Position numbers and translations under genes: made by a program. Shown in pieces: positions 8,281-36,750 of a stretch of DNA of 39,095 bases. The stretch covers positions 1 through 39,095 of the forward strand of contig JAAZOQ010000187.1 in assembly GCA_012797695.1 (NCBI GenBank). The letters run 5' to 3'. The notes under the pieces are model-generated. The model saw nothing but the letters and a program-made list of their open reading frames with translations. It did not search any database and was not told the DNA's origin. How positions within the stretch are numbered: the stretch's first letter is position 1; every line of letters starts with the position of its first letter. This stretch comes from Anaerolineaceae bacterium (GTDB taxonomy: Bacteria > Chloroflexota > Anaerolineae > Anaerolineales > Anaerolineaceae).

Positions 8281-8329
8281 TCAATTTTAACTCTCAAGAC
8301 TTTCAGGAGAGCAAATAGAAAGAATTCTG

Positions 8330-9562: not shown

Positions 9563-9565
9563 ATC

Positions 9566-14660: not shown

Positions 14661-14668
14661 TCCCTGGC

Positions 14669-15685: not shown

Positions 15686-15940
15686 TTGCTTATGATCATT
15701 CCCGACGAAACAGATCCTTGCTGGATCAAAGCAATTTCTGGTGAAGACTCTCCTAAATACGAACTCCTGGCAACCAAGATCATCTTGGGACGTTTGAATT
15801 TAATTTATGAAATGGATCCTTCTCCTGAAACTGCGCAAAAGTGCGTATCCGAATTACGCTCATTTTTTATCTGGAATAAAGACCTTCCCAAAGCCCAGAC
15901 AGATTTGGAGAAAATCTTAGGCAAGGCGGTGAATCATTGA
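15686..15940 (+). CDS. Hypothetical small acidic protein (84 aa)
   Basis: Complete ORF whose stop overlaps the next gene's start (TTGA). Confidence 0.5.
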   Translation: MLMIIPDETDPCWIKAISGEDSPKYELLATKIILGRLNLIYEMDPSPETAQKCVSELRSFFIWNKDLPKAQTDLEKILGKAVNH

Positions 15941-18751: not shown

Positions 18752-19389
18752 CATCCAGTGGCCCGATTCATGTGATGGTAGTCGATGATCATGCTGTAGT
18801 TAGAAGCGGCATGGAAGCCTTTCTCGACTCTTACGAAGATCTGGAAATGACCGGGTATGCGCGTACCGGTGAAGAAGCCATTGAGAAATGCATCGAGCTA
18901 AAGCCTGATGTCGTATTAATGGATTTGTTGATGCCGGGGATGGATGGAGCGGCTGCGACCAAAGTACTGCGGCAAAAATGTCCCAAAACTCAGGTCATTG
19001 TGCTGACGAGTTCCAAGGAAGCAACCATGATCCAGAAGGCCATTCAGGCTGGCGCTATTGGATATCTGCTGAAAGACGTACAGGCGGATGAAATTGCCGA
19101 AGCCATCCGTCTGGCCCATTCAGGGAAGTCCATCCTGTCGCCCGAAGCAGCGCAGGCTTTGATACGTGCCTCCAGCCAGCCTAACCCACTGGGATATGAC
19201 CTGAGTGACCGAGAACGTGAAGTACTGGCACTAATGGTGAAGGGGCTAAACAATACCGAGATCGCTGCCAAGCTGATCGTTTCACTTTCCACGGTGAAAC
19301 ACCACGTCAGTCACATCCTCTCAAAGCTGGACGCGACCAATCGAGCAGAAGCGGTAGCGCTGGCAGTACAGCACCGCCTTATCAACTAA
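18748..19389 (+). CDS. NarL/LuxR-family response regulator
   Basis: MVVDDHAVVRSGMEAFL, DVVLMDLLMPGMDG, LSDREREVLALMVKGLNNTEIAAKLIVSLSTVKHHVSHILSKL; ATG at 18748 overlaps kinase stop (ATGA), AAGGAG upstream. Confidence 0.92.
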   Translation: MTSSGPIHVMVVDDHAVVRSGMEAFLDSYEDLEMTGYARTGEEAIEKCIELKPDVVLMDLLMPGMDGAAATKVLRQKCPKTQVIVLTSSKEATMIQKAIQAGAIGYLLKDVQADEIAEAIRLAHSGKSILSPEAAQALIRASSQPNPLGYDLSDREREVLALMVKGLNNTEIAAKLIVSLSTVKHHVSHILSKLDATNRAEAVALAVQHRLIN

Positions 19390-20812: not shown

Positions 20813-21256
20813 CTAACGATCACTTGCAGAAAGGTCAAAGCCATTTTCAACCAGTAATTCCTTGGCGCGCTGATAAGTTGCCGCGATCAAATTTGGACAA
20901 ATTTCGGCTACCTTCTTCCGATCTTGCCCCACCAGGTTCTCGCAGTGGATTCCTCCGCAAGGCACACCATATTCCTGCTTAAACCACTTGAGCAGATCTT
21001 CGATCATAAACATCAGCCGTGGCTCGTCCTCTTCTTCGGGAAGACCACGGCCAGCATAAAGCCCCAGCATGCAAACCGCACCGGTCAGGGCCCCACAGAC
21101 ATCACCGGTATACCCCAGGCCTCCTGCCAGCCCCTGCATTGCCCGAATCAGATCGGGGTTCTCCTTCCCCTGCATCTCCAGAGCCATTTTCAGTATGACT
21201 TGGCTGCAGGAAAAACCCTGCGCCTTAAATTCCATCATTTGTTCGAGGTCATCCAT
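20813..21256 (-). CDS. C_GCAxxG_C_C family protein
   Basis: GFSCSQVIL, GDVCGALTGAVCMLGLYAG, GVPCGGIHCENLV, AEICPNLI. Confidence 0.85.
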   Translation of the reverse strand: MDDLEQMMEFKAQGFSCSQVILKMALEMQGKENPDLIRAMQGLAGGLGYTGDVCGALTGAVCMLGLYAGRGLPEEEDEPRLMFMIEDLLKWFKQEYGVPCGGIHCENLVGQDRKKVAEICPNLIAATYQRAKELLVENGFDLSASDR

Positions 21257-21289: not shown

Positions 21290-22024
21290 TCATTTGCCAT
21301 TCCTCTTCTTTTTCTGCGCAACGCACAAAAAATAACTGATCTTCGCTCGAGAAACCGCCAGCACCAGATCAAAGGGATCCAGCGATAAGTTCTCCGGGTT
21401 GATCAGTGTATTCAAATCGGCTCCAGCACAAAAAGCGGAAAGTGCTTCTGCATGATCTTCCCAAACCGCCAGAGAGAAACCAGATCGCTGCAGTATGTCC
21501 CAGAGTTCTTTTTGTGCGAAGGCATTTGCCAGACAGCTATTGGGAACCAATCTGCGAATTTCTGATAACTGGTCAGGGACGCGCGCATAAAGGTCCGTCA
21601 AGATCAGCACACCCGTTTGCTGAAGAACGCGATGAATTTCTATCAGTACCCCAGACAAATCCTGAAACACGGATAAACTGCATTCACAAATCACCGCTTC
21701 TAAAGAAGAAGTTTGAATCGGCAAATGCAGGGCATCCCCCTGTATGCCCGGAAATGTCCGCGAGTTTGCAAGTTCTGGCTGGAGCAAAGTTCGTGAAAAA
21801 TCCAGCCCGAAAGCCGGGTATCCCAGACCACGCAAATAGCGAACTGTTCGACCCGTTCCACAGCCCAGATCCAAAACATGATCTCCTGGGCCAAGCGAGC
21901 CAAGTTCTACCGCGCGTCGGGTCAATTCACTCCCGCCCGGATGAAGAGTTCCCCCCATCATCGGGCTGCAGGTTGTTTTCTCATAGAGACTCACCGATGC
22001 AGGCGGCATCTGCGCTGTCGTCAC
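21290..22024 (-). CDS. Class I SAM-dependent methyltransferase (TrsM/DVU_1556-like)
   Basis: GSLGPGDHVLDLGCGTGRTVRYLRGLGYPAFGLDFS, ALHLPIQTSSLEAVICECSLSVFQDL. Confidence 0.8.
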   Translation of the reverse strand: MTTAQMPPASVSLYEKTTCSPMMGGTLHPGGSELTRRAVELGSLGPGDHVLDLGCGTGRTVRYLRGLGYPAFGLDFSRTLLQPELANSRTFPGIQGDALHLPIQTSSLEAVICECSLSVFQDLSGVLIEIHRVLQQTGVLILTDLYARVPDQLSEIRRLVPNSCLANAFAQKELWDILQRSGFSLAVWEDHAEALSAFCAGADLNTLINPENLSLDPFDLVLAVSRAKISYFLCVAQKKKRNGK

Positions 22025-22033
22025 AGGCTGCTC

Positions 22034-22246
22034 CTATTTATCTTCCACTGCTCTTTCGACTTCAGCCATCTTCCCAAGTGCCAGATCTTCAGGTACCAGC
22101 ACCAATCCACACTTGGGGCAGCGCAGAAGATCTACCGGGTAAGAATTCCCCAGGTAAGATACCATCACCTTTCCCGGTTCAAGTGGAACATGACATTTCG
22201 AGCAGGTCCAGTGGCCCTGAGCAATGGCTTGAACTACTTCGCTCAT
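22034..22246 (-). CDS. Small zinc-ribbon/redox protein (DVU_1557-like)
   Basis: GHWTCSKCHVPLEPGKVMVSYLGNSYPVDLLRCPKCGLVLVPEDLALGKMAEVERAVEDK: two CxxC motifs; overlaps next gene by 4 nt. Confidence 0.75.
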   Translation of the reverse strand: MSEVVQAIAQGHWTCSKCHVPLEPGKVMVSYLGNSYPVDLLRCPKCGLVLVPEDLALGKMAEVERAVEDK

Positions 22247-24540
22247 GATCTGCCTCCTTCGAGAAGTTCCATGCGATGACTATAGGCATTGTGAATCACG
22301 TAGTGATCCTCCTCGACTGAGTAATCTACCCAGTAGGTCACCCGAGTGGGTTTGTAATGTGCCAGGAAATGACCATTCTCCTGCTGCAAAAATTTACTCT
22401 GGGTACGTTCAGCATATTCGATCACTTTTTGGAGATCCTCGGTCAAGATCAAGCGATCTTCAAGAAGTTGCTTTACCTCATCAGAAAAAACCAATTGAAT
22501 CGACTCATAATTTTCGTGGTCAGGCATCGTTTCACTCCAGATTTCTTTGAGCATCTGCTCTTTGAGACGGGCACGATTCTCATGCCGCTGCGAGAACCCT
22601 GGCCCCTTACGTTCGGCACGGGTACGCAAATCACTGGCATAGAAAAGATCCAGCAAATGCAAAGTGGATTTGCCATGATTGGCAAAGAAATCGCGGCACA
22701 TGGAACAATAAGTCAAATAATCATTGGCGCTCTCATGAATCCGCCGCTCAATGATCTGCTGCGATAACGGAGGGTTCGCCAACCAGGTTTGCCCGCCGAA
22801 ACTGCAGCAAGTCGTCTTTTCGCGATTGAGCGGTAATTCTTCAATACGATAACCCATTTTTTGTGCCAGACTGCGTACGCTCGTATGAATTTGTGATTCA
22901 TAGCGGGTAGAACATGGGTCATGAATGGAAACAACCCCACCTTTTTTAGAAACCGCCCCTTCCGGCAATCCATATTGATCAAAGATCTCCCACAATGACA
23001 CAATGGGTAAATCAGGCAAATTGTTCTTGAACACCTGATAGCAGCTGGAACAGGCCAGAACTACCTTCGGTTTACCCAATTCTGCATAGTGAGCCTTGAA
23101 TTCCTCCAGCGCTGCCTGGAATATCTCTCGCTCGCCGGCCCAATCTGCCGGTGCCCCGCAGCAGCCCAGCATCAAACCTACCTGTGGCAAATGGTCCTCT
23201 AAATAAGCATATACCTGCTTCACCTGCTCCGGGGCCGAAGCACTGAGCTGGCAGCCCGGGAAGAAAACATATTGGCTTGAATCCGTGCCCGGCTGATTAC
23301 GGGTCAATGAAAAATGCGGACTGTTGCTAAATGCCATGTCGCGCAAGGCAAAGTCGTGCGCTGAGGGAGGCATGTGGCCCTGTTCCACCATCGTCTGGCG
23401 GGCTTCCTTACACAACGCGCCCATATCCAGGTGCGTGGGGCAAACCTCTTTGCATTGGCCGCACAAACTGCACGAATTGATCATTTTATTGAACAATCGT
23501 GTCCCCATCACAATCGAGAGGTTGTTATAGATCTGTCTGACGTATTTCTTCGGATAGCCGCCGTAGAAGGAGAGATACTCGCAATCCTTAACGCATTCCA
23601 TACACTCACATTGCAAGCAGCGGGCAGCCTCACTTTTTGCCTCCTCTGCCGTGTACCCCTTGCCGCGCATGTGAGTTACTGGCTGCCGCGATTCCCCAGC
23701 CATGTTCGTGTACAGACAGCTCTCATAAGGCCCTTCATTGACCCGGGATGCCGTCAACGAAACCTTTTGGATCGAGCGATCCATAGAAACCGCGGCGATG
23801 CGGCCATCTGACATAGCCGTAATGAAAGGCAACTCTTTTTGACTGCCAACCTCACTACCAGCAAAAACCCCAGGCAAAGCAGTGCTGCGCGTCACCGGAT
23901 CGATGGCACCCAGTACAGATTCGCGGCCCGCCCCGACCGCCACATAGACCGCATCGAACTCGTGCTGCAACTGTCCCAGAGTGATCCGGTTGGAATCCGC
24001 ATTAAAGCTAACCGCTGTATTAAGATGCACCTCAATGCCCAGCTGCAGCAAAGCTTCGATCTCTTTTTCCAACACAGCATGAGGTAAACAGTCCTCAGCA
24101 AACGAGCGCAGCCTTCCCCCGAGTACGCCAGATGCTTCATAGATCACAACCGTATAGCGTTTGTGAGCCAGATCGTAAGCCGCAGTCAGCCCACTGATCC
24201 CACCACCCACAATCGCCACACGCTGTTTACGGCGTGTGAGCGAGGAAGCCTTTTCTTCTGCCGGGCTGCCCAATTCGACGCAAACACGTTCCAGGTCAGC
24301 CACAGCAATGGGCTCATGGCGCAGGCACACCTCACGGCAAGGCTGTTCACAGATACGACACGTCAGCGTCGCAAAAGGCAATGCCTTTTTGAGAGTTTGC
24401 AGTCCAGCAGTGAAATTCCCTTGCTGCACATTCGCGCACAGCGTCCGCACATCCACGTGCATCGGACAGCTCGCAACGCAAGCCGGGGCGCATTCTTGAA
24501 TACACTGTGTTTCCAGATCGTGCAAATGATTTTGATCCAT
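22243..24540 (-). CDS. FAD-dependent GltD-like oxidoreductase fused to Fe-S and HdrB/CCG domains
   Basis: ETQCIQECAPACVASCP and CRICEQPCREVC clusters; RVAIVGGGISGLTAAYDLA; CSLCGQCKEVCPTHL; CCG-like FFPGCQLSA..MLGCCGAPADWAGE and DPCSTRY..TTCCSFGGQ..CSMC. Confidence 0.85.
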   Translation of the reverse strand: MDQNHLHDLETQCIQECAPACVASCPMHVDVRTLCANVQQGNFTAGLQTLKKALPFATLTCRICEQPCREVCLRHEPIAVADLERVCVELGSPAEEKASSLTRRKQRVAIVGGGISGLTAAYDLAHKRYTVVIYEASGVLGGRLRSFAEDCLPHAVLEKEIEALLQLGIEVHLNTAVSFNADSNRITLGQLQHEFDAVYVAVGAGRESVLGAIDPVTRSTALPGVFAGSEVGSQKELPFITAMSDGRIAAVSMDRSIQKVSLTASRVNEGPYESCLYTNMAGESRQPVTHMRGKGYTAEEAKSEAARCLQCECMECVKDCEYLSFYGGYPKKYVRQIYNNLSIVMGTRLFNKMINSCSLCGQCKEVCPTHLDMGALCKEARQTMVEQGHMPPSAHDFALRDMAFSNSPHFSLTRNQPGTDSSQYVFFPGCQLSASAPEQVKQVYAYLEDHLPQVGLMLGCCGAPADWAGEREIFQAALEEFKAHYAELGKPKVVLACSSCYQVFKNNLPDLPIVSLWEIFDQYGLPEGAVSKKGGVVSIHDPCSTRYESQIHTSVRSLAQKMGYRIEELPLNREKTTCCSFGGQTWLANPPLSQQIIERRIHESANDYLTYCSMCRDFFANHGKSTLHLLDLFYASDLRTRAERKGPGFSQRHENRARLKEQMLKEIWSETMPDHENYESIQLVFSDEVKQLLEDRLILTEDLQKVIEYAERTQSKFLQQENGHFLAHYKPTRVTYWVDYSVEEDHYVIHNAYSHRMELLEGGRS

Positions 24541-24664
24541 AACGAATCCTGTTGACCCTTTTCACGAAAACGAAGTATTCAGTTTTGCTAATTTTTCTTC
24601 TCTCAGTATAGAGAGAATATTCTACAGGAACAACCGTCAAGAGTAGCGTTTTGGCATCGGTCAA

Positions 24665-24687
24665 CTGACCCATTTTAAATGGGTCAG
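24665..24687. promoter_or_regulatory. 23-bp perfect palindrome, candidate operator between divergent operons
   Basis: CTGACCCATTT-T-AAATGGGTCAG: 11-bp arms, 1-nt centre. Confidence 0.7.
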
Positions 24688-24844
24688 GCGGCCAGTGCTG
24701 AATTATCCGAGTGCACGTTTTCACCGGGCCATAAACCTTCTATGATGAAGATGATACCAAGCAAAGCGGAAAAGTTTCAACTGAATATCTTTCGTAGTTC
24801 CTGAAACCATCCAAATTCAACAAAAATTTATTAAGGAGGTAAGG

Positions 24845-27601
24845 ATGCAAAAGAAAACATTTGTAGTCAATGGCGTTCCCCAAACAGTCGAAATTGACGA
24901 CGAAACGTCATTGGGAGATGTTTTGCGCGAGAAGCTGATGCTTACCGGCACAAAACTCTCCTGTAGACAGGGACACTGTGGCGCTTGCTCCGTTCTTATT
25001 GACGGCAAGCTGACCCTGTCTTGTGTCACCCGGGCCAAGCGTGTACCCGATGGCGCGAAGATCACCACAGTAGAAGGAATTGGCACACCTGAGAAAATGC
25101 ACCCCATCCAAATTGCATTTATTGCTCATGGCGCCGCCCAATGCGGTTTCTGTACCCCCGGTATGATCGTTTCATCGAAAGCTTTGCTAGATAAAGACCC
25201 CAATCCCTCTCGCGAAGAGGTACGGGAATGGCTGACCAAGCATCACAACGTCTGCCGCTGCACCGGTTACAAACCCATCGTGGATGCCATCATGGATGCA
25301 GCCAAAGTCATGCGTGGTGAAATGAGCCAGGCTGAACTCGAATTCAAGATGCCCGCCGATGGGCACATCTGGGGCACCAAGTTCCCGCGCCCGACCGCCA
25401 AAGCCAAAGTTACGGGTACACTCGACTTTGGTCAGGATCAAGCGCTCAAAATGCCTGCCAACACCCTGCGCTTAGCTCTGGTCCAGGCAAAAGTTCCCCA
25501 TGCCAACATCCTTTCTATCGATACCTCCGAAGCTGAAAAGATGCCCGGCGTTTTCAAAGTGGTCACTTCTAAAGACGTCAAGGGCAAAAACCGCATCACC
25601 GGTTTGATCACCTTCCCGACGAATAAAGGGGATGGCTGGGATCGCCCCATTCTGTGCGATACCAAGATCTTCCAGATTGGTGATGCTATCGCCATCGTCT
25701 GCGCGGATACTGAAGCACACGCTCGTGCAGCTGCCGATAAAGTCAAGGTTGAACTGGAAGTGTTGCCCGCTTACATGAATGCGATCGATGCCATGGAAGA
25801 AGATGCCATCGAAATCCATCCGGGAACCCCGAATATTTACTTCGAACAGCCCATTGTCAAAGGCGATGACACCAAATCCATTATGGAAACTGCCCCCTAC
25901 GTTGCAGAAGACAGCTACTATACTCAGCGCCAGCCGCATCTTTCCATCGAAACGGATACCGGTTTCGCTTACTTCGACAAAGAAGGGCGTTTGACCATTC
26001 ACTCCAAGAGTATCGGTCTGTATCTGCACTTGCTCATGATCGCCCCTGGAATTGGTCTGCCCCCCGAGAAGATCCGCATGGTGCAAACTTACGCCGGCGG
26101 TACTTTCGGCTACAAATTCTCCCCGACCATGGAAGCCCTGTTGGGCGTTGCCTGTATGGCAACCGGCCGCCCGGTTTCACTGACCTATGACTACACCCAA
26201 TACATGCAGTACACCGGCAAGCGCTCCCCATTCTTCACCACCGTGAAGATGGCCGCTGATGAAAAAGGCAAGCTCGTAGCCATGGAAACGGATTGGACCT
26301 GCGATCATGGTCCCTATTCCGAATTCGGCGATCTGCTGACCCTGCGCGGTGCCCAATACATCGGTGCCGGTTACAACATTCCCAACATTCGTGGTCTCGG
26401 CCGCACCGTCTGCACGAACCACGTCTGGGGTGCTGCCTTCCGTGGTTATGGCGCTCCTGAGAGTGAATTCCCCTCCGAGAGTCTGATCGATGAGCTGGCC
26501 GAGAAGGTTGGCATGGACCCGTTGGAATTCCGCTACATCAACGTCTACCGCCCAGGGGATACCACCCCCACCGGTCAGGATCCCGATGTCTACTCCCTGC
26601 CCGAGATGATCGACAAACTGCGCCCACGCTATCAGGCTGCCCTCGAGAAAGCCAAACGCGAATCCACCCCCGAGAAGAAGAAGGGTGTCGGCGTGGCAAT
26701 CGGTATCTACGGCTGCGGTCTGGATGGTGTGGATAGCGCCGAGATGGAAATCGAACTCACCAAGACCGGTGTAACCGTTTTTGCTAACTGGCACGATCAT
26801 GGCCAGGGTGCAGATATGGGCACCCTGGGAACCGCCCACGAAGCCCTGCGCCCACTGGGTCTGAAACCCGAACAGATCAAACTGGTAATGAACGACACCG
26901 CGTTCACCCTCAATGGTGGCCCTGCCGGCGGTAGCCGCAGCCAGGTGTTCGTTGGCAATGCCATCAAGAACGGCTGCGAGAATTTGCTGGCTGCCATGCA
27001 GAAAGGCCCGAACAAATATCGTACTTACGATGAGATGGTTGCCGAAGGTTTGCCGTTGAAATACAAAGGCAGTTGGGCTTCTTCCATGGCCACGAACTGC
27101 GATGCCGAAACCGGCCAGGGAAAACCATTCGCTGTCTACATGTATGGTGTGTTCATGGCTGAGGTCGAGGTCGAGGTCAAGAGCGGCAAGACCAAGGTCG
27201 AAGCACTCACGCTGGTTGCTGATATCGGTAAGATCAACAACAAACTGGTCGTAGATGGTCAAATCTATGGCGGTCTTGCCCAGGGCGTGGGTCTGGCTCT
27301 CTCAGAAGACTTCGAAGACTACTCCATCCACTCTACCTTACTCGGTGCAGGCGTTCCGTATGCCACCGATATTCCGGATAAGATCGACATCATTTACGTC
27401 GAGACTCCCCGCGAATACGGTCCTTTCGGCGCTGCTGGTGTGGGCGAATTGCCGTTGTGCGCTCCCCATCCTGCCATCATCAATGCGATCAAGAATGCGA
27501 CAGGCGCTCGTGTGACCAATTTGCCTGCCCGCCCGCCAAAAGTGGTGACCAGCATCAAGCTGAAAGAGAAGGCGGACGCCACTGTTTCGCTGATTTCCTA
27601 A
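24845..27601 (+). CDS. mop: Molybdopterin aldehyde oxidoreductase (MOP-like, xanthine oxidase family, no FAD domain)
   Basis: CRQGHCGACSVLIDGK, AAQCGFCTPGMIV, NVCRCTGYKPIVDAI two [2Fe-2S] domains fused to Mo domains; AFRGYGAPESEFPSE, GPAGGSRSQVFVGNA, FGAAGVGELPLCAPHPAI with catalytic Glu. RBS AAGGAGG. Confidence 0.93.
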   Translation: MQKKTFVVNGVPQTVEIDDETSLGDVLREKLMLTGTKLSCRQGHCGACSVLIDGKLTLSCVTRAKRVPDGAKITTVEGIGTPEKMHPIQIAFIAHGAAQCGFCTPGMIVSSKALLDKDPNPSREEVREWLTKHHNVCRCTGYKPIVDAIMDAAKVMRGEMSQAELEFKMPADGHIWGTKFPRPTAKAKVTGTLDFGQDQALKMPANTLRLALVQAKVPHANILSIDTSEAEKMPGVFKVVTSKDVKGKNRITGLITFPTNKGDGWDRPILCDTKIFQIGDAIAIVCADTEAHARAAADKVKVELEVLPAYMNAIDAMEEDAIEIHPGTPNIYFEQPIVKGDDTKSIMETAPYVAEDSYYTQRQPHLSIETDTGFAYFDKEGRLTIHSKSIGLYLHLLMIAPGIGLPPEKIRMVQTYAGGTFGYKFSPTMEALLGVACMATGRPVSLTYDYTQYMQYTGKRSPFFTTVKMAADEKGKLVAMETDWTCDHGPYSEFGDLLTLRGAQYIGAGYNIPNIRGLGRTVCTNHVWGAAFRGYGAPESEFPSESLIDELAEKVGMDPLEFRYINVYRPGDTTPTGQDPDVYSLPEMIDKLRPRYQAALEKAKRESTPEKKKGVGVAIGIYGCGLDGVDSAEMEIELTKTGVTVFANWHDHGQGADMGTLGTAHEALRPLGLKPEQIKLVMNDTAFTLNGGPAGGSRSQVFVGNAIKNGCENLLAAMQKGPNKYRTYDEMVAEGLPLKYKGSWASSMATNCDAETGQGKPFAVYMYGVFMAEVEVEVKSGKTKVEALTLVADIGKINNKLVVDGQIYGGLAQGVGLALSEDFEDYSIHSTLLGAGVPYATDIPDKIDIIYVETPREYGPFGAAGVGELPLCAPHPAIINAIKNATGARVTNLPARPPKVVTSIKLKEKADATVSLIS

Positions 27602-27631
27602 TTTCTGTTTACTCGCACCGCAAAGGAGTTA

Positions 27632-28120
27632 ATGATTATGGCAAAAATGATAATGGTTCATCCCGATCGTTGCGTGGGTTGCAAGAGCTGTGTTGCGGCC
27701 TGTGCCTTTGAACATGAAGGGAGCCAGCGTCTCGAAGCATCTCGGGTGCACGTTTTCAACTTTGACTTTGAAGGTGTCAACGTGCCGATGATGTGCCAGC
27801 ACTGCAGTGATGCAGCCTGTGTCACCGTCTGCCCCACGGGTGCTATGCACCGCAACCCTGAAACATCCGTCATCGAATACGATGCCTCCCGCTGCATCCG
27901 CTGCCGTATGTGCACCATGGCCTGCCCGTTTGGCAATTCAGTCTATGACGCTCTGACTGACACCATTTTGAAATGCGATCTTTGCAATGGTGATCCCGCC
28001 TGCGTGAAAGTTTGCCCGTCTGATGCACTCGAATACGTCGACGACACCGTCTCTACATTCTCCCGCCAAAAGAACTTCGCTGCAAAACTAAAAGAAACAA
28101 TCCAGGAATTTCCTGGCTAG
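27632..28120 (+). CDS. 4x[4Fe-4S] ferredoxin (HycB/CooF-like)
   Basis: CVGCKSCVAAC, CQHCSDAACVTVCPTGA, CIRCRMCTMACPFG, CDLCNGDPACVKVCPSDAL. Confidence 0.9.
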   Translation: MIMAKMIMVHPDRCVGCKSCVAACAFEHEGSQRLEASRVHVFNFDFEGVNVPMMCQHCSDAACVTVCPTGAMHRNPETSVIEYDASRCIRCRMCTMACPFGNSVYDALTDTILKCDLCNGDPACVKVCPSDALEYVDDTVSTFSRQKNFAAKLKETIQEFPG

Positions 28121-28134
28121 ACTTTATCCCACTT

Positions 28135-28167
28135 CTGCGCCAGTCGGGCCATCCCCGGCTGGCGTAG
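28135..28167 (+). other. Intra-operon RNA hairpin, 14-bp stem
   Basis: CUGCGCCAGUCGGG (28135-28148) / CCCGGCUGGCGUAG (28154-28167), 5-nt loop, two G-U pairs; no U-tract. Confidence 0.65.
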
Positions 28168-28185
28168 ATTTATCAGGAGGAGCTT

Positions 28186-30039
28186 GTGAACCAACTCGTC
28201 GTATTGCCTCTGGAGGCTCTCGGCGTCGGTATTTTGTTGCAAGTTATACTGAGCCGAGTTCTTTCTCCTAAATGGAAAGGCTGGCTGGCTTTTCTGGCTG
28301 GCGTCACTGCACTGATAGCTATTTTGGCACTGCTTCCTACGATCATTCAGGGTTCAACAGTTAACCGGACCCTCTTTTCTTGGGATCAAAATATTTCCTT
28401 GCAATACCATGTGGATGGGTTGAGCTTAATCTTTGCTCTGATGGCTACCGGAATCGGTTCTGCTATTTTGCTTTATTGCATTCAGTACATTGCCCATGAG
28501 CCAGAAGGCATCACCCGCTTCTACGTTTTGATGCTCACCTTTATCGCCGGACTCGTCAATCTGGTCTTTTCAGCCAATCTCTTACTGGTTTATCTGAGCT
28601 GGGAAGTCATTGGCTTATGCTCTTACTTTCTGGTGGGCTTCTGGTACAAAGAAACTGTGGCCGTCAACGGCGCGCGAAAAGTGCTGGTCATGACCCATAT
28701 TCCCGGCTATGGATTGCTCGCCGGCATCTTGCTGCTCTACCATCAGAGCGGTACTTTCGTCTGGACAGATCCTTCCATCAGCGCGGCTTTCACTACCGGC
28801 ATTTTCGTACTTATGCTGGTCGGTGCAATGGCTAAATCAGTCATGTTCCCGCTGCATACCTGGATCCCCGAGGCCATGAATGCCCCGACGCCAGTTTCAG
28901 CGCTGCTGCATTCCGCCTGCTACGTCAAAGCGGGCGTGTACCTGATAGCACGTATGTACTCGTTGGCCCATTGGCCGCATGCCTGGAATATCGTTGTGAT
29001 CACTTTGGGCTGCGTCACCATCTTTGTGGGAGCCATTTTTGCTCTGGCCCAAACCGATATGAAACGTCTGCTGGCCTACTCGACCATCAGCCAGCTTGGT
29101 TACATCATCACCGGTCTGGGGTTAGGCACCAATCTGGGCATCGCTGCCGGTCTGTTCTACTGCTTGAGCCACGGCCTCTTCAAAGGGACTCTGTTCCTGT
29201 GTGCCGGCGCCGTGCAGCATTCCACGGGTACCCGTGATATGCGTCGTCTCGGCGGCCTTGCCGCCAAAATGCCCTGGACAGCACGTATCTGGCTGATCGC
29301 GACCGCTGCCATCGTCGGCGTGCCCCTTACCAATGGGTTTGTCGCCAAATGGCTGCTGTTGGATGCCGCTCTGGACGCAAACATGACCATCGTGGTCATC
29401 GTTGCCTGGGTCGTCAGTGTAATCACAGCAATCTACATGCTCAAGGCAACCGTCAGCGTCTTCTACGGCGAAATGCCGGCCTGGTTGAAAGAAAGCCACG
29501 TCCACGATGCCGAACCTTCCATGTTAGGCGGGATGGGCATCTTGGGTTTTCTGTGCCTGCTCTTTGGCCTGGCCCCACAAATTCTCTTCAAAGGCCTGGT
29601 CAACCCGGCAGTCACTGCCCTCGGTTTCGACTGGAAAATCACCCTTACCTGGTTCGGTCTGCAAACCAGCTCCGCTGGCGTACAGGTCACGTTGGGCGCC
29701 GCGATCGCTCTGGTCGCGTTGCTCTTCGGTGCATTGATCTTTGCCATGACCCGCAAGAGTCGTGTGGTCGCCAATAATGTGGCCGTCTTCACCGGTGGTG
29801 AACCGCTCACCGACAACGCCGGAATGCGCGCCGTGGACTTCACCGTCGTGGCAGAATCCAATCTAGCCCCAGTTTACAAGATCACCGACCCAGACCCCAT
29901 CTATTTTGGCCTTTGGAATGGAATCAAGAAGCTGGCCAACGGGTTTGCTGTTGTCATGGATCCGATCAGCGAGAAATTCCCAATTTGGGCTTCTGCTCTG
30001 CTGATCGTGGTTGTCTTTGTGATTGTCTGGTTCATTTAA
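28186..30039 (+). CDS. NuoL/HyfB-like antiporter-type membrane subunit, group 4 hydrogenase
   Basis: GTG start after AGGAGG; LLVYLSWEVIGLCSYFLVGFWYKE, VMFPLHTWIPEAMNAPTPVSALLHSACYVKAGVYLIAR, DMKRLLAYSTISQLGYI. Confidence 0.92.
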   Translation: MNQLVVLPLEALGVGILLQVILSRVLSPKWKGWLAFLAGVTALIAILALLPTIIQGSTVNRTLFSWDQNISLQYHVDGLSLIFALMATGIGSAILLYCIQYIAHEPEGITRFYVLMLTFIAGLVNLVFSANLLLVYLSWEVIGLCSYFLVGFWYKETVAVNGARKVLVMTHIPGYGLLAGILLLYHQSGTFVWTDPSISAAFTTGIFVLMLVGAMAKSVMFPLHTWIPEAMNAPTPVSALLHSACYVKAGVYLIARMYSLAHWPHAWNIVVITLGCVTIFVGAIFALAQTDMKRLLAYSTISQLGYIITGLGLGTNLGIAAGLFYCLSHGLFKGTLFLCAGAVQHSTGTRDMRRLGGLAAKMPWTARIWLIATAAIVGVPLTNGFVAKWLLLDAALDANMTIVVIVAWVVSVITAIYMLKATVSVFYGEMPAWLKESHVHDAEPSMLGGMGILGFLCLLFGLAPQILFKGLVNPAVTALGFDWKITLTWFGLQTSSAGVQVTLGAAIALVALLFGALIFAMTRKSRVVANNVAVFTGGEPLTDNAGMRAVDFTVVAESNLAPVYKITDPDPIYFGLWNGIKKLANGFAVVMDPISEKFPIWASALLIVVVFVIVWFI

Positions 30040-30054
30040 ACGGATGAGGTTACG

Positions 30055-31245
30055 ATGAATTCACTCTTTTTTCAAACAGTAACTTCAACGAGCAGTGAGC
30101 TCTGGGATTGGGTCTTTGCTGGCGCTTTCCTGGTATTGATGATCGTCATTGGCCTGTATTCGGCTGCCATTCCCCAGGGAAAACGCAGCTGGAGTATCCT
30201 GGCCGCCCTCATCGGAATACTGGCGATCGCCGGCCTGGTTGTCGGTGAAGGCTGGGCACGGATTGCCCTGCTGGATGCCGCCGCTTTCGTTGCCGTAGCG
30301 CTGGTCTGGAATCAAGGAACGCCGGCCGCTAAATCCGCCGCCAAGACCTATCTGATCTTGATGATCATCGCTGTTGCCTTTCTGGGCGCAGGGATGGCAC
30401 TGGTCGGGGAAGGCAATGAGCTGCCCGTTTTCCCGCTGGATAAGATCGCTGCCGGACTGCTAATCGCTGGCTTTGCGGTGAAACTGGCCCTGGTGCCGTT
30501 CTATTTCTGGCTGCCCAAGGTAACCGAACATTCCAGCCCCATGACATCCGCGCTGATCATCTCCATTGTCGACATCGCTGCCTTTTGCGAGATGGCCCAC
30601 CTGCGCATCACAGCCGCCTGGGTCTTTACTGATTACGCAATTCTCTGGTTGGTACTGGCATTGCTGTCCATGTTCGGAGGAGCCCTGTTAGCTCTGGCCC
30701 AAAAGAACATCAAACGCATGCTTGCTTTTTCAACCATTGATGACATGGGCTATCTGGTGCTGGGAACGTTGGTCGGCACCCAATATGGTTTGAACGGTGC
30801 TATTCTGGCCGCTTTAAGCCACGCCTTCTTCAAGGTGCTTCTCTTTGGCGCAGTAGGCGTAGCTGAAAAACAACTCGGCCACGATCTTACGCTTGAGGAT
30901 CATGGCGTCGCCGCCCGAAACCCCTACAACGCTGGCGTCTTTATTTTGAGCGCCATCGGCATGATCGGCGTCCCTCCCTTCTTTGGTTTCATCGGCCGCT
31001 GGCGGCTGTACCTTTCCGGCCTGGAATATGGCGGAGTGGCTCTGGTGCTCACCATGGCTGCCGCTACCGCGCTGGCTTTGCTTTACTACGTCCGAGTCAT
31101 TCACCGGGTATGGTTGGGGAAACCTGCAGAAGAAACTGCCTCCACCCCCGCGCCGAAACTGGCAGTGATCGTTCTGGTCATCCTTTTGCTCGGCATGCTG
31201 GCAGTGGGGCTTTACCCCAACTGGCTCTCCACCCTGATCGGGTGA
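30055..31245 (+). CDS. NuoN/HyfF/MrpD-like membrane subunit (short, 396 aa)
   Basis: LVPFYFWLPKVTEHSSPMTSALIISIVDIAAF, KNIKRMLAFSTIDDMGYLVLG, ALSHAFFKVLLFGAVG. Confidence 0.88.
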   Translation: MNSLFFQTVTSTSSELWDWVFAGAFLVLMIVIGLYSAAIPQGKRSWSILAALIGILAIAGLVVGEGWARIALLDAAAFVAVALVWNQGTPAAKSAAKTYLILMIIAVAFLGAGMALVGEGNELPVFPLDKIAAGLLIAGFAVKLALVPFYFWLPKVTEHSSPMTSALIISIVDIAAFCEMAHLRITAAWVFTDYAILWLVLALLSMFGGALLALAQKNIKRMLAFSTIDDMGYLVLGTLVGTQYGLNGAILAALSHAFFKVLLFGAVGVAEKQLGHDLTLEDHGVAARNPYNAGVFILSAIGMIGVPPFFGFIGRWRLYLSGLEYGGVALVLTMAAATALALLYYVRVIHRVWLGKPAEETASTPAPKLAVIVLVILLLGMLAVGLYPNWLSTLIG

Positions 31246-31260
31246 AATCTTTGATAGGGT

Positions 31261-31731
31261 ATGCATATGAATCCATTTAAGAAACTCATGCAAATCTCCC
31301 GCGGCAAATCTCCCTGGATCTATTGCCTGAATACCGGTGCCTGCAACGGCTGCGACATCGAGATTGCCGCCAGCCTGACCCCACGTTACGATGCCGAGCA
31401 ACTTGGCGTCCGCCGTGAAGGCAGCCCCAAACACGCTGACATTCTGGTAGTTTCAGGCCCAGTAACGCTGCGGACTCGTGATGCTCTGCTCAATATCTAC
31501 GAACAAATGCCCAACCCCAAAGCCGTGGTCGCCGTAGGCTCATGCCCGGCTTCCGGGAACGTTTTTGCTGGCAGCCCCACTATTTTTGGCGCAGTCGACC
31601 AGTTCATCCCGGTGGATGTCTACGTGGCCGGCTGTCCTCCCCGCCCGCAGGCAATTCTGCAAGGAATTGCTGAAGCAGCCGGAATTCTGGCTGCCGGGAA
31701 GCAAAAAAATCTTATGGAGGCGAAGAAATGA
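31261..31731 (+). CDS. [NiFe] hydrogenase small subunit (HycG/NuoB-like)
   Basis: NTGACNGCDIEI, VAVGSCPASGNVF, VAGCPPRPQAIL: four cysteines of the proximal cluster. Confidence 0.92.
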   Translation: MHMNPFKKLMQISRGKSPWIYCLNTGACNGCDIEIAASLTPRYDAEQLGVRREGSPKHADILVVSGPVTLRTRDALLNIYEQMPNPKAVVAVGSCPASGNVFAGSPTIFGAVDQFIPVDVYVAGCPPRPQAILQGIAEAAGILAAGKQKNLMEAKK

Positions 31732-32636
31732 ATCTCTGGCTCGCCTATTTGATCGCTTTGCTGTTATGGCCTGGCCTGATCGGTGCCACTTTGCTCGGAT
31801 GGTTGTACATGTGGTTCATCCGTAAACTGTCGGCACGCTTTCAGGGCCGACAAGGGCCGCCTTTTTACCAGCCTTTCTTCGATTTCATCAAATTGCTGGG
31901 AAAAGAAAACATTGTCCCGGCTGGGATCAATCGAGTGCTTTACTATGGGCTGCCCATTTTATCGCTGGTCTCGATCGTCTTTGCCCTGGCCCTGATTCCA
32001 GTACCAGGGAACCCGATCCAATCTTTCCCGGGAGATCTCATCGTTTTCATCTATTTACTTGAGACACCAGCCCTGTGTGAAATTCTGGCCGGGTTCAGCA
32101 CACGCTCTCCCTATGGTCAGGTGGGAGCCTCTCGTGAAGCCATGATGAGCCTGGGATACAACGTGCCTTTCCTGGCCGCCGTGATTGCTGTAGCCGTCCA
32201 TGCCGGCAGCTATAACCTGAACGTGTTAGCCAAAACGCCGCTTTCATGGGTCAGTCTGGCTGCTGCAGTAGCCTTCTTCCTCTCTCTGCCCGCTCGCTTG
32301 AAGAGCAATCCGTTCTCGATTGCCAATGCCGAACAGGAAGTGGTGGCAGGGGCTCACACCGAATACAGCGGTATCGCTTTGGCCCTCTTTGAGCTGAGCC
32401 ATACGCTGGAACTGGTAGCCATGATCAACCTGTTCGCCGTGCTTTTCCTCTCACCGATCACCTCAGGTTGGGTGACCGGGGTGGCATACCTGCTGCTCAG
32501 CGTCCTTCTGATCGTGTTGATTACCCTCATCGGCAACGCAACTGCCCGTCTCAAACTCAACCAGGCTTTCCGCTTTTACTGGCGTTGGGGAGCAGCAGCA
32601 GCCGCAGTAGCCATCGTTTTCGCGTTCATTTTCTAA
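31728..32636 (+). CDS. HycD/NuoH-like membrane subunit
   Basis: SARFQGRQGPPFYQPFFDFIKLLGKENIVP, YGQVGASREAMMSLGYNVPF; ATGA overlap with upstream gene. Confidence 0.92.
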   Translation: MNLWLAYLIALLLWPGLIGATLLGWLYMWFIRKLSARFQGRQGPPFYQPFFDFIKLLGKENIVPAGINRVLYYGLPILSLVSIVFALALIPVPGNPIQSFPGDLIVFIYLLETPALCEILAGFSTRSPYGQVGASREAMMSLGYNVPFLAAVIAVAVHAGSYNLNVLAKTPLSWVSLAAAVAFFLSLPARLKSNPFSIANAEQEVVAGAHTEYSGIALALFELSHTLELVAMINLFAVLFLSPITSGWVTGVAYLLLSVLLIVLITLIGNATARLKLNQAFRFYWRWGAAAAAVAIVFAFIF

Positions 32637-32642
32637 AAAGGA

Positions 32643-33179
32643 GTGAAAATGAACATTCTTCATATCTTGTCTCAAAATTTCAATCACGGCTCACGTACTC
32701 GTCGGCCTGAAGATGCAGTTCCCTACCCGAAAGACTTCAGAGGCAGGCTGCTGCACAACACCAATTTGTGTACAGCCTGCGGCACCTGTGTGTACGCCTG
32801 CTCTCCTGGGGCCATCACCATCGACACCAGTGAAGGCAACGTTGCGAACTGGGATTACACCGAAGATCGCTGTACTTTTTGTGGTTTTTGTGTGCAGTAT
32901 TGCCCCACTCACGCTCTAAGTTTCGAACAGGTTTCTCCGAAGCCCATCAATGAACGGGTGGAACATTATCTCTTTCATGAGATCGAACTGCAGCCATGCC
33001 GCCAATGCGGTAAACCTGTGCAGATGATCCCCCTGGAAACTCTGGAACAGCTCTATGGTCATCCCCTGCCGGCCGAAATCGCAGAAACGCAAGGTCTATG
33101 CGAAAACTGCCGCCAGCAATTGATCAGCAAACGTTTCCTCAATGCTCTGGTTGTCAAAGGAGACCGTAAAGATGACTGA
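32643..33179 (+). CDS. HyfH/NuoI-like 2x[4Fe-4S] subunit with extra C-terminal Cys motif
   Basis: LCTACGTCVYACSPGAI, RCTFCGFCVQYCPTHAL, then PCRQCGKP...GLCENCRQQL. Confidence 0.9.
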   Translation: MKMNILHILSQNFNHGSRTRRPEDAVPYPKDFRGRLLHNTNLCTACGTCVYACSPGAITIDTSEGNVANWDYTEDRCTFCGFCVQYCPTHALSFEQVSPKPINERVEHYLFHEIELQPCRQCGKPVQMIPLETLEQLYGHPLPAEIAETQGLCENCRQQLISKRFLNALVVKGDRKDD

Positions 33180-33597
33180 CTATAACAACCTGCTCCAACA
33201 ACTCCCGGGAGCCACCTCTCTGGTACAAAAGAAAGACGGCTGGTGGATGATCGCGCCACGGCTGGATGTGCTGGAAATGGCCCAAAAGATGAAAGAATGG
33301 GGAGCCCGCTTCAGTACTATGACCGGAAGAATGATCTCGGAAGAAGAAACCGCAGTCATTTACCACTATTGTCTGGAAAATGTTGCTTACAACATCAAAG
33401 TGAACACGCAAGGCAATAAACTTCCCTCGATCAGCGTCATTCTGCCCGCAGCAGATTGGATCGAACGTGAGATTCAAGACCTCTTCAAGGTCGAATTCAC
33501 CGGTCACCCGCATCCCGAGCGATTGTTACGACCCCTGCAACTGGAACCCGGTCTCTTCCGTGAAATTGGCGGTGCGAAAGAAAAGAAGGAGAACTAA
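33172..33597 (+). CDS. NuoC-like (HycE N-terminal type) subunit
   Basis: Start MTDYNNLLQQ at 33172; ISVILPAADWIEREIQDLFKVEFTGHPHPERLLRP. Confidence 0.88.
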   Translation: MTDYNNLLQQLPGATSLVQKKDGWWMIAPRLDVLEMAQKMKEWGARFSTMTGRMISEEETAVIYHYCLENVAYNIKVNTQGNKLPSISVILPAADWIEREIQDLFKVEFTGHPHPERLLRPLQLEPGLFREIGGAKEKKEN

Positions 33598-33599
33598 TT

Positions 33600-34679
33600 A
33601 TGCCTTACACCATTCCGATTGGCCCTTACCACCCTGCTCTGGAAGAACCCTACAAGATCAACGTCACCTGCCAGGGAGAAAACGTCCAAGACGTTGATAT
33701 CGCCATTGGGTTCAACTTTCGCGCCATCGAATTGCTGGCCCAACGGCGCAACTACCTGCAAGACGTCACCCTGGTCGAACGCGTCTGCGGTATTTGCTCG
33801 AACGTGCATACCATGACCTACTGTATGGCGGCTGAATCCATCGCGGGAATCGAATTGCCGCGACGGGCTGCCTACATCCGCGTGATCATCGCCGAACTGG
33901 AACGTTTGCACTCTCACCTGCTCTGGTCCGGCGTCGCCGCCGAACTGATTGGCTACCAAACCATGTTCATGGAAATCTTTGCCCTGCGCGAGCTGGTCAT
34001 GGATGTGCTCGAAGCCATTTCGGGGAACCGCGTCAATTACGCCATGAATGTCATTGGCGGCGTCAATCGCGACATCAATGATCCCGACGATATTCTGGCG
34101 GCCGTACGCAAAATCAAAGCCACCGTCGAAAAAGTCGTGATCCCGATTTTCACCACAGACGCCACGGTAAAAGCACGTACTGCCGGCGTGGGTATCCTCA
34201 CCCGTGAAGATGCCCTGGCCTACGGCACAGTGGGGCCCACCGCCCGGGCTTCTGGTCTGGAGCTGGACCTCCGCTGTGATCTGCCTTATGCAGCTTATGG
34301 AGAGCTCGGCGTCAATCGTGTAGTACAAACTTCCGGAGATGTCTTTGCCCGTGTTGTTGTCCGCGCTCTGGAAATTCTCGAAAGCATTCGCCTGATCGAA
34401 AAAGCGCTGCAAAACTTGCCCAAAGGTCCCATCCGCATCGAGGATCTGTTCCCCGTCATCCCGGCCGGCGAAGCAACCGCCCGTGCTGAAGCGCCACGCG
34501 GAGAAGTGTTTTACTACATTGCCTCAGACGGCAGTGACATTCCGTTACGGGTGAAAATTCGCACGCCAACCTATGCCAACATGCCGTCTGTTCGCGCGAT
34601 GAGCCAGGGTCAACAACTGGCAGATATGCCATTGATCCAGGCTTCGATCGACCCCTGTTATTCCTGCACTGACCGATAA
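33600..34679 (+). CDS. Group 4 [NiFe] hydrogenase large subunit (NuoD/HycE-like)
   Basis: N-terminal ERVCGICSNVHT and C-terminal DPCYSCTDR: all four Ni-ligand cysteines present; ends exactly at DPCYSCTDR. Confidence 0.93.
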   Translation: MPYTIPIGPYHPALEEPYKINVTCQGENVQDVDIAIGFNFRAIELLAQRRNYLQDVTLVERVCGICSNVHTMTYCMAAESIAGIELPRRAAYIRVIIAELERLHSHLLWSGVAAELIGYQTMFMEIFALRELVMDVLEAISGNRVNYAMNVIGGVNRDINDPDDILAAVRKIKATVEKVVIPIFTTDATVKARTAGVGILTREDALAYGTVGPTARASGLELDLRCDLPYAAYGELGVNRVVQTSGDVFARVVVRALEILESIRLIEKALQNLPKGPIRIEDLFPVIPAGEATARAEAPRGEVFYYIASDGSDIPLRVKIRTPTYANMPSVRAMSQGQQLADMPLIQASIDPCYSCTDR

Positions 34680-34740: not shown

Positions 34741-34895
34741 GAGGAGAGATATCGGTCGTTTACTGTTGCCCGGTGACCCTTTACTGTCAGTCCTCCTACA
34801 CCGAGCAAATGCGGGTGTCAAGGCGCAAACCACTCAGCAAGAAATCAGGCTTCTCCTGGATGGGAGCCCTGAGCATGTCTTAAGTGGTTTGCGCC
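34741..34895 (+). ncRNA. Putative structured RNA/leader element between hydrogenase and xdhC
   Basis: Perfect 13-bp inverted repeat GGCGCAAACCACT (34822-34834) / AGTGGTTTGCGCC (34883-34895) enclosing a nested hairpin; adjacent ACACC/GGTGT hairpin (34798-34818); possible GAGGA/TCCTC pairing (34741-34745 / 34791-34795). Confidence 0.5.
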
Positions 34896-35007: not shown

Positions 35008-36063
35008 ATGCGAGAAGTCATAGCTGAAATCAAAAACTGGCAAAAAGATGGAAAACCTGTTGCGATAGCAACCAATGTGAAACGCAATGGCATGTCGCTG
35101 CGCCCCTTGGGAGCCAAGATGGCCATGACTGATCAGATGGATATTGCCGGGTCAGTCACAGGCGGCTGCATCGAAGGAACAGTCTATGAGGAAGCCCAAA
35201 AGGTGCTCCACACGCACCAACCCCACCTGCTACATTATGGCGTCACCGGCGACGAAAAACCCTGGGACATTGGTTTGAGCTGCGGCACCTCATTGGACGT
35301 TTTCGTTGAAGATCTGAACTCCGCTGCCTGGCAAACTCTCTTCCCCTCTGTTCAAGAAGCATTGCGAAAGAATCAACTGGCTGCGGTCGCGACGGTAATC
35401 GTTGGTACCGGATTGGGCAATAAAATGATGGTTTATTCCGATGGACAGTGTCTGGGTGATCTTGGAAATACCCAATTAAATGAAGAAGCCAAGGCCTGGA
35501 TCAAGGAATTATTCACTACCCAAGAAGTCAACTGGAAAGAATTTACAATCGCGGGCGAAGCTGTAGAAATCTTCGCCGATCTGCTTATCCCAGATGCCCG
35601 GATGATCATTATTGGTGCTGCCCACATTGCCATTCCGCTGGTGGAAATGGCCAAAGTCATGGGTTTCTACACCATCGTCATCGATCCGCGCGAAGCCTTT
35701 GCCAACCGTGATCGGCTCCCCAGCGTAGACGAGTTGATCGTGGATTGGCCCTCCACAACGCTTGAAAAATTGAATCTGGACGAATCAAGCTACGTCGCCG
35801 TCATCAGTCACGATGAAAAGCTGGATAACCCTGCCCTGGCAGTAGCACTCACTCGCCCTACCCGTTACGTGGGCGTGTTAGGGACCAAAAAAAATGTTGC
35901 CAAGCGGTTAGAAACTTTACGTGAGCTAGGTGTCAGCGAAGAACAACTCAAAAAACTACACGCTCCAATTGGGCTGCACATTGGGGCCGAAACCCCTGAA
36001 GAGATCGCCCTATCGATTCTGGCAGAAATGGTGACTGCCAGACACGGAATTTCGAAAGCCTGA
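35008..36063 (+). CDS. xdhC: XdhC/CoxF-family Mo-hydroxylase maturation protein
   Basis: MREVIAEIKNWQKDGKPVAIATNVKRNGMSLRPLGAKMAM, GSVTGGCIEGTVYEEA, GLSCGTSLDVFVE; Rossmann IIGAAHIAIPLVEMAKVMGFYTIVIDPREAFANRDRLP; GLHIGAETPEEIALSILAEMV. Confidence 0.92.
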   Translation: MREVIAEIKNWQKDGKPVAIATNVKRNGMSLRPLGAKMAMTDQMDIAGSVTGGCIEGTVYEEAQKVLHTHQPHLLHYGVTGDEKPWDIGLSCGTSLDVFVEDLNSAAWQTLFPSVQEALRKNQLAAVATVIVGTGLGNKMMVYSDGQCLGDLGNTQLNEEAKAWIKELFTTQEVNWKEFTIAGEAVEIFADLLIPDARMIIIGAAHIAIPLVEMAKVMGFYTIVIDPREAFANRDRLPSVDELIVDWPSTTLEKLNLDESSYVAVISHDEKLDNPALAVALTRPTRYVGVLGTKKNVAKRLETLRELGVSEEQLKKLHAPIGLHIGAETPEEIALSILAEMVTARHGISKA

Positions 36064-36071
36064 ACTGACTC

Positions 36072-36113
36072 AAGGATTCACCGCAGATCTATCTCGGTGA
36101 ATCCTTTTTCTTT
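36072..36113 (+). terminator. Rho-independent terminator after xdhC
   Basis: AAGGATTCACCG (36072-36083) / CGGTGAATCCTT (36095-36106), perfect 12-bp stem followed by T-rich tract. Confidence 0.85.
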
Positions 36114-36114
36114 G

Positions 36115-36120
36115 TATAAT
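36115..36120 (+). promoter_or_regulatory. Possible -10 element TATAAT for the MocA-like gene
   Basis: TATAAT 28 nt upstream of ATG 36148; no clear -35. Confidence 0.35.
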
Positions 36121-36147
36121 GGAAATCTGTGGAGAAATAAGAACACA

Positions 36148-36750
36148 ATGGATCAATGCACTGACAATCAAATCGCCGGGATCATTCTGGCTGCTGGAGC
36201 CTCTTCTCGAATGGGGCAGCCCAAAGTACTTTTAGAATGGCAGGGAGAAACCCTGATCCATCGGGTCGCCCGCACTGCATTATCGGCGCGTCTGGGGCCC
36301 GTTATTGTTGTCGCCGGCGCGCTCTCTCCCCAGATCGAGCAAGCTCTCCCCCACCTGGATATCCAACTCGTGGCCAACCCCAATTGGTCAGCCGGGCAAA
36401 GTACCTCTGTCCGCGCCGGTATCCAGGCGCTGCCGCAAGACACTCAAGCCGTCGTCTTTCTGCTTGGGGATCAGCCATTCGTTACAGTGGAATTAATTCA
36501 GAAACTAATAGAAACTTACCAGAAAACTCGGCCTGAGATTCTGGCCCCCTTTGTCAACCAGAAACGCATCAACCCGGTGATCTTTGATCGATCCGTCTTT
36601 CCGCACTTACTTGAGCTGCAGGGAGACGCTGGGGCACGCAGCCTGTTCGCTCAATTCCCTCCAGCGGTCATGCCCTGGAATGATGAAAGAGCAGGCTTTG
36701 ACATCGATACACCAGAAGATTATGAGAAACTAATCCATACTGCGGAATGA
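36148..36750 (+). CDS. MocA/MobA-like nucleotidyltransferase (molybdenum cofactor; DVU_1551-like)
   Basis: IAGIILAAGASSRMGQPKVLLEWQGETLIHR, VFLLGDQPFVT, LQGDAGARSLF, DIDTPEDYEKL; ATG 36148 preferred over 36097. Confidence 0.88.
   Translation: MDQCTDNQIAGIILAAGASSRMGQPKVLLEWQGETLIHRVARTALSARLGPVIVVAGALSPQIEQALPHLDIQLVANPNWSAGQSTSVRAGIQALPQDTQAVVFLLGDQPFVTVELIQKLIETYQKTRPEILAPFVNQKRINPVIFDRSVFPHLLELQGDAGARSLFAQFPPAVMPWNDERAGFDIDTPEDYEKLIHTAE

Follow-up and report, generated by a model that had tools for sequence, protein, structure and literature searches.

Formate hydrogenlyase (FHL; FdhF, HycB, and HycCDEFG) combines a soluble molybdenum enzyme with a four-cluster ferredoxin and a group 4 [NiFe] membrane hydrogenase. 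The CO-dependent hydrogenase (CooF, CooS, and CooMKLXUH-type subunits) follows the same logic with a nickel carbon monoxide dehydrogenase (CODH) as catalyst, whose gene is adjoined by that of the CooF-like ferredoxin. For aldehydes, an in vitro chain of four separate soluble proteins from Desulfovibrio gigas leads from the aldehyde through the molybdenum aldehyde oxidoreductase MOP, flavodoxin, and cytochrome c3 to hydrogenase and H2, without a dedicated operon or a membrane ion-pump module (PMC10223205). The partners of MOP are still called putative after decades of structural work (PMC10223205). A D. gigas-like Mo aldehyde oxidoreductase is strongly upregulated in Sulfurospirillum cells whose H2 comes from a group 4 hydrogenase, which is a correlation only (PMC6242987). 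Here we analysed a stretch of 39,095 nucleotides from an Anaerolineaceae bacterium (the window), which is the whole of contig C351 of its genome (G000; 3.2 Mb in 440 contigs). It contains a run of genes that packages an enzyme of the same aldehyde-oxidising family genetically with a membrane hydrogenase. These genes probably encode an aldehyde:H+ oxidoreductase, an "aldehyde:hydrogen lyase", in which electrons would pass from MOP via a polyferredoxin (Fd4) to the hydrogenase, with the same net reaction as in the D. gigas chain.

The run comprises nine plus-strand genes at 24845-34679, for MOP, Fd4, and seven hydrogenase subunits, which are separated by at most 65 bp and were all verified at the positions and in the families originally predicted. 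MOP (24845..27601, +), the proposed electron-donating catalytic module, had been described as a FAD-less Mo-hydroxylase. This is borne out by a score of 1624 bits against NF045668 (cut-off 1100) and by its Pfam content, namely two [2Fe-2S] domains (Fer2, Fer2_2), two Mo-binding domains (MoCoBD_1/2), and Ald_Xan_dh_C; no FAD domain was found in the Pfam profile search. The protein is colinear over its whole length with D. gigas MOP (PDB 1sij, 1392 bits). In the alignment, the residues matching D. gigas F425, F494, L497, Y535, L626, and E869 are all identical (E868 in the window corresponds to E869), the first five of which we take to be the pocket positions of the D. gigas enzyme. Glu869 is its catalytic residue (PMC10223205).

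Fd4 (27632..28120, +), the proposed electron wire, contains 16 cysteines in four CxxCxxC-type [4Fe-4S] sites, which are invariant in all 19 relatives. Its best PDB matches are 9mqx_E (156 bits), 8c0z_C (128 bits), which is annotated in the PDB as a potential aldehyde oxidoreductase subunit, and 6x6u_B (105 bits), presumably, like 6x1o_B, Pyrococcus furiosus WOR5. By sequence similarity, Fd4 is closest to these partner subunits of tungsten aldehyde oxidoreductase (AOR) enzymes, of the AorA/WOR5-small-subunit type, and HycB (7z0s_B, 79 bits) comes only after them. The original prediction of a HycB/CooF-like four-cluster ferredoxin therefore holds for the four clusters but not for the HycB label. 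The polyferredoxin subunits of Aromatoleum aromaticum AorABC and of WOR5 group with Fd4, but the catalytic subunits of those enzymes are tungsten AORs, whereas the polyferredoxin of the window is paired with a Mo-hydroxylase. Such a likeness fits an origin of Fd4 in an AOR-type operon.

The seven hydrogenase genes follow on the plus strand. The large, NuoD-like subunit (33600..34679) contains all four nickel ligands in two CxxC motifs, C63/C66 (VCGIC) and C353/C356 (DPCYSC), which are invariant in 19 of 19 sequences, and its gene terminates exactly at ...DPCYSCTDR, without a C-terminal extension. Against solved structures it scores highest with the membrane-bound hydrogenase (MBH) of P. furiosus (6cfw_L, 305 bits), followed by E. 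coli FHL (7z0s_E, 255 bits) and complex I (200 bits). The small subunit is NuoB/MbhJ-like (31261..31731; 6cfw_J, 172 bits) with an equally invariant proximal [4Fe-4S] site (C28, C31, C95, and C125, 19/19). The NuoI/HycF-like subunit with two [4Fe-4S] clusters (32643..33179) was identified by profile and PDB searches. The open reading frame (ORF) of the NuoC-like subunit (33142..33597; PF00329) overlaps that of NuoI, and its true start is therefore probably downstream of 33142. The membrane arm consists of a NuoH-like subunit (31728..32636; PF00146, with 6cfw_M and 7z0s_D among the best PDB matches), a NuoL/MrpA-like antiporter subunit of 617 aa (28186..30039; PF00361, PF00662), in which E140, K217, and K388 are among the residues invariant in 18 of 18 sequences, and a NuoN-like antiporter subunit (30055..31245; PF00361, 126 bits). 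Thus, the complete membrane hydrogenase with all nickel cysteines, as claimed before, is present. Identity with complex I or Ehr is ruled out by the four nickel-binding cysteines. HypF is encoded in the host genome, split across two contigs.

Compared to FHL, the operon has an additional NuoN-like subunit and separate NuoC and NuoD subunits, AOR partner subunits match its Fd4 better than HycB does, and its large subunit is nearer to MBH than to HycE. It does not belong to FHL, given that an FdhF-type formate dehydrogenase is absent and MOP takes its place. Fd4 adjoins the catalytic gene as CooF does in the CO-dependent hydrogenase, but the catalyst here is a Mo-hydroxylase instead of the Ni-CODH. 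The CooS gene is absent from the MOP-type operon while it is present in two related loci (L054 and L157), which excludes membership in the Coo system.

Three genera of the Anaerolineaceae have the gene order MOP-Fd4-NuoL-N-B-H-I-C-D, one of them represented by the isolate Longilinea arvoryzae KOME-1. In the third genome (G051) the order is kept, but the locus is divided between two contigs, C500 and C344, and the central part of NuoN is absent. Absence of the linkage from relatives had been set beforehand as refuting the prediction; the neighbourhood search found MOP upstream of the ferredoxin and group 4 hydrogenase in all three genera. A chimeric metagenome-assembled genome is ruled out by the identical order in the isolate. 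Every window gene within 13359-36750 has a counterpart in Longilinea in the same order, and comparison of the Longilinea flanks revealed no counterpart for the window ORFs beyond these limits, so that synteny ends at both sides. Because the order recurs in three genera and synteny is bounded at 13359 and 36750, the arrangement is more than chance. In a tree of 17 MOPs of the family, the three that are linked to a hydrogenase group together with support 100/100. As far as sampled, MOP and hydrogenase would thus have been joined in a single event, and the linkage was retained in three genera.

The other occupants of the position beside Fd4 and the hydrogenase concern the role of MOP more directly. 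Ten Chloroflexota genomes, among them those of Longilinea and of the window itself, have orthologous Fd4 and seven hydrogenase genes in the same order as in the window together with a tungsten AOR and MoaD (Fd4-AOR-MoaD-NuoL...NuoD). The AOR of these loci carries both AFOR domains. The locus of the window's own genome is on contig C434 (Fd4-AOR-NuoL), to which the entry L045 probably belongs; contig C277 probably represents the same locus. The same order, Fd4-AOR-MoaD-hydrogenase, is found in five loci (L177-L181) on plasmids of four Azospirillum strains, where the RefSeq annotation reads aldehyde ferredoxin oxidoreductase and MoaD/ThiS. In the genomes G051 and G801, the genes of a CooF-like protein and a CODH (749 bits against TIGR01702 in G051, cut-off 478) come before those of a hydrogenase that is more distant and has a long NuoL. 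Among the hydrogenase relatives found whose donor is known and differs from MOP, these CODH-linked loci are the closest. Their large subunits are 68% identical to that of the window, but their CooF is only about 35% identical to Fd4 and their NuoL has 1009-1024 aa versus 617 aa. The maturation genes track the catalyst: AOR is accompanied by MoaD (in G819 also by a W-maturase-like radical SAM protein), MOP by XdhC and MocA. Constant across the exchange are Fd4 and the hydrogenase, and in G819 also a set of DUF6976 protein, kinase, and regulator. Three unrelated oxidoreductases can thus occupy the slot, and two of these belong to aldehyde-oxidising families. This argues that the slot feeds electrons via Fd4 into the hydrogenase, and we regard this module exchange as strong circumstantial evidence for such a role. 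The earlier proposal that the Mo-hydroxylase replaces FdhF or CODH as electron-donating module is supported by the W-AOR or CODH in the same slot of relatives.

Concerning the order of events, a tree of four hydrogenase subunits places the MOP-type loci in one clade (100/100), the AOR-type beside them, and the CODH-type outside of both. The AOR-type hydrogenase of G819 is sister to the MOP-type with support 95/94, or 94/90 when Azospirillum is added. The nesting favours AOR as the first and MOP as the second occupant, but this is not proven, because monophyly of the AOR type is not rejected in the approximately unbiased (AU) test with added taxa (p-AU 0.157). Phyla beyond the Chloroflexota were sampled through plasmids only, on which no close relative of MOP was found (none above 34%), and a contig search with a single sequence matched Longilinea alone.

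In the proposed mechanism, the aldehyde would be oxidised at the Mo-pterin-cytosine-dinucleotide site of MOP, and the electrons would move through its two [2Fe-2S] clusters and the four [4Fe-4S] clusters of Fd4 to the NuoI- and NuoB-like subunits. The [NiFe] site would reduce protons to H2 (net: aldehyde + H2O -> carboxylate + H2 + H+), and the NuoH/L/N membrane arm would probably store part of the free energy as an ion gradient. The benzoate/benzaldehyde couple has a potential of -505 mV compared to -414 mV for H+/H2 (PMC9295118). The net reaction is therefore exergonic. The acetaldehyde couple is lower still than that of benzoate/benzaldehyde.

Several points weigh against such a lyase. Electron flow and H2 evolution are inferred, as are the complex, the ion pumping, and the physiological substrate, and the reading as a whole is built on sequence and gene context. 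In D. gigas MOP, the potentials of the [2Fe-2S] clusters are near -260 to -285 mV. Evolution of H2 may therefore need a low H2 pressure as in a syntrophic setting. The NuoN-like subunit, which is kept in the MOP and AOR types, is shortened, which may affect the pumping stoichiometry. In MOP, only 14 of 908 positions are specific to the hydrogenase-linked proteins and these are not clustered, so that no docking face for Fd4 is marked. Of the 147 genomes of the family, 17 encode together 18 MOPs above the NF045668 cut-off, and although Fd4 and the hydrogenase come next in three cases, the other 15 have no adjoining hydrogenase. MOP can therefore use another acceptor. In addition, a stem-loop is found between Fd4 and NuoL, so transcript levels of the catalytic and hydrogenase modules may differ.

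An alternative is that the genes are neighbours that are regulated together under a shared growth condition but are not directly coupled. The hydrogenase would then run on general reduced ferredoxin, with Fd4 as one carrier among others, while the electrons of MOP would go elsewhere, for example to the NF045663 protein or flavodoxin. Ferredoxin is indeed a common partner of group 4 hydrogenases, and 14 of the 15 MOPs without hydrogenase adjoin an NF045663 gene or a contig-end fragment (one has neither), which is immediately downstream of most of them. In the window this gene is also adjacent, in divergent orientation. However, the Fd4 gene is placed between those of MOP and the hydrogenase, and its product has dedicated AOR subunits as homologues. 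It is also hard to see how co-regulation alone would lead to the exchange of MOP, AOR, and CODH at one position beside the same kind of ferredoxin and hydrogenase. We therefore regard the absence of direct coupling as unlikely.

The system could also run in reverse. H2 and/or an ion gradient might drive the reduction of carboxylates to aldehydes, and further towards alcohols, or electrons derived from H2 might be disposed of. Group 4 hydrogenases are reversible, and acid reduction with H2 is known for the W-AOR of Aromatoleum (PMC9295118), so that it might also occur in the AOR-type sisters. For the Mo-hydroxylases of the xanthine oxidase family, we know of no reduction of unactivated acids. 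The Mo-MOP variant would therefore be the wrong catalyst for this direction, an alcohol dehydrogenase gene was not found in the conserved block, and reverse operation is highly improbable. The substrate of MOP, whose clade is uncharacterised, does not follow from its family alone, and the complex could be a hydrogenlyase for a purine, another N-heterocycle, or CO. This is very unlikely too, because MOP scores far above the aldehyde oxidoreductase equivalog cut-off and far below those of xanthine dehydrogenase and Mo-CO dehydrogenase, because the six D. gigas residues are identical, and because the sister module in the slot, AOR, belongs to an aldehyde enzyme family. In our best reading, the aldehyde:hydrogen lyase extends the formate and CO hydrogenlyases by a new catalyst, and its AOR-containing sister form is probably more widespread.

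With about even chances, this can be generalised to a plug-in family of hydrogenlyases, in which one core of ferredoxin, hydrogenase, and ion pump takes unrelated oxidoreductases, with W-AOR and Mo-MOP as interchangeable aldehyde heads of an energy-conserving anaerobic "aldehyde-proton respiration". Several genomes, Longilinea arvoryzae KOME-1 among them, contain both the W and the Mo version, and the choice between them is possibly made by metal supply. No description of MOP- or AOR-linked group 4 hydrogenases was found in the open-access literature, a search that did not cover subscription journals. If the lyase reading is true, aldehydes would join formate and CO as substrates with a dedicated membrane hydrogenlyase, built in this case with two unrelated metal enzymes, and MOP would gain an energy-conserving role. 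This would explain how some syntrophic Anaerolineaceae of digester and sediment habitats get rid of aldehydes, as acid and H2.

The syntenic unit is larger than the nine-gene run. It takes in genes for XdhC, MocA, the MOP-associated proteins of the opposite strand, the DUF6976 protein, the kinase, and the regulator, as the synteny across 13359-36750 implies. Downstream are genes for an XdhC-family maturation factor for MOP (35008..36063, +), which has Pfam XdhC domains and is found at the same place in Longilinea but stays with 220 bits under the NF045664 cut-off of 350, and for a MocA-like molybdenum cofactor cytidylyltransferase (36097..36750, +; TIGR03310, 177 bits, slightly under the cut-off of 186). 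The minus-strand genes upstream encode the MOP-associated NF045663 flavin/NAD and Fe-S dicluster protein, divergent from MOP (22243..24540; 1026 bits, cut-off 530), and further MOP-associated proteins, namely a DVU_1556-family methyltransferase (21290..22024; NF045667, 186 bits, cut-off 155), a DVU_1555-family C-GCAxxG-C-C protein (20813..21256; NF045669, 169 bits, cut-off 103), the radical SAM protein TrsS (19394..20794; NF045646, 662 bits, cut-off 490), and, at the upstream end of the block, a DVU_1553-family AMP-dependent CoA ligase (13359..14702; NF045666, 463 bits, cut-off 300). By domain match and synteny, a putative heavy-metal chelation protein (DUF364/DUF4213; 14669..15358, -) also lies within the conserved block. 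On the plus strand, a NarL-type response regulator (18718..19389) is the likely regulator of the operon, with homologues beside MOP-, AOR-, and CODH-type operons. A GAF-GAF histidine kinase (16955..18751) is, by profile match and neighbourhood, its partner, and a DUF6976 protein (15937..16920; PF22396, 436 bits) travels with this pair and is perhaps part of signal sensing. Longilinea, with a MOP-type locus, and G819, with an AOR-type one, share the order DUF6976-kinase-regulator.

All three genomes have the palindrome GGTCAASTGACCC in common in the region upstream of MOP, followed about 70-80 bp further on by CTATGAT. In the window, the palindrome GGTCAACTGACC at 24659..24670 is a candidate operator of the MOP operon, present exactly or as an S-variant 5' of MOP in all three genomes, and CTATGAT at 24740..24746 (+) resembles a -10 element and is unchanged in all three. 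In G000 and G051 the 13-base palindrome has one occurrence each, at the MOP locus, and in Longilinea it has three. Located between MOP and the divergent accessory operon, it may serve both. The short gaps suggest co-transcription of the nine genes, and so does the position of the conserved palindrome and -10-like box, which are found 5' of MOP alone. The stem-loop between Fd4 and NuoL (28134..28168, +; RNA fold z -4.2) lacks a U-tract, and comparable ones are found in Longilinea at the same junction (z -3.9) and after AOR in the AOR-type locus that was tested (z -3.5). We read it as an element for RNA processing or stability, by which the two modules could be made in unequal amounts, and not as a terminator. 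A strong stem-loop, also without U-tract, is located between the large-subunit and XdhC genes (34822..34895, +; z -5.6). It is not a dispersed repeat given its single copy in G000.

Some related loci deserve mention in their own right. The Azospirillum plasmid loci are complete operons, most of them close to a hypA gene. The plasmids are large and belong to strains from plants or soil, and the operons are apparently undescribed as a unit. The Chloroflexota CODH-linked hydrogenase operons (L157 6620-10861 and L054 2818-5892) have unusually long NuoL subunits, and the interior of the L157 operon also encodes a cytidylate-kinase-like and an HbpS-like protein. At L049 3818-8366, a xanthine dehydrogenase-like Mo-hydroxylase with a separate FAD subunit gene is encoded just upstream of, and co-directionally with, a different, Mrp-type group 4 hydrogenase. 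This pair is also found with similar spacing in six species of one genus (G140, G141, G142, G144, G145, and G146), and it is a possible second, independent linkage of a Mo-hydroxylase with a hydrogenase. Outside the conserved block, the window contains a trehalose-like cluster on the plus strand (4959-10357) with an MGH1/GH63-like hydrolase, GT20 and GT4 glycosyltransferases, and a trehalose-phosphatase, and a protein kinase fused to leucine-rich repeats in a eukaryote-like architecture (11116-12723). At 788-2658, a TrpA-like protein (100 bits) adjoins a protein with weak similarity to TrpB, possibly a divergent pair that does not act on tryptophan.

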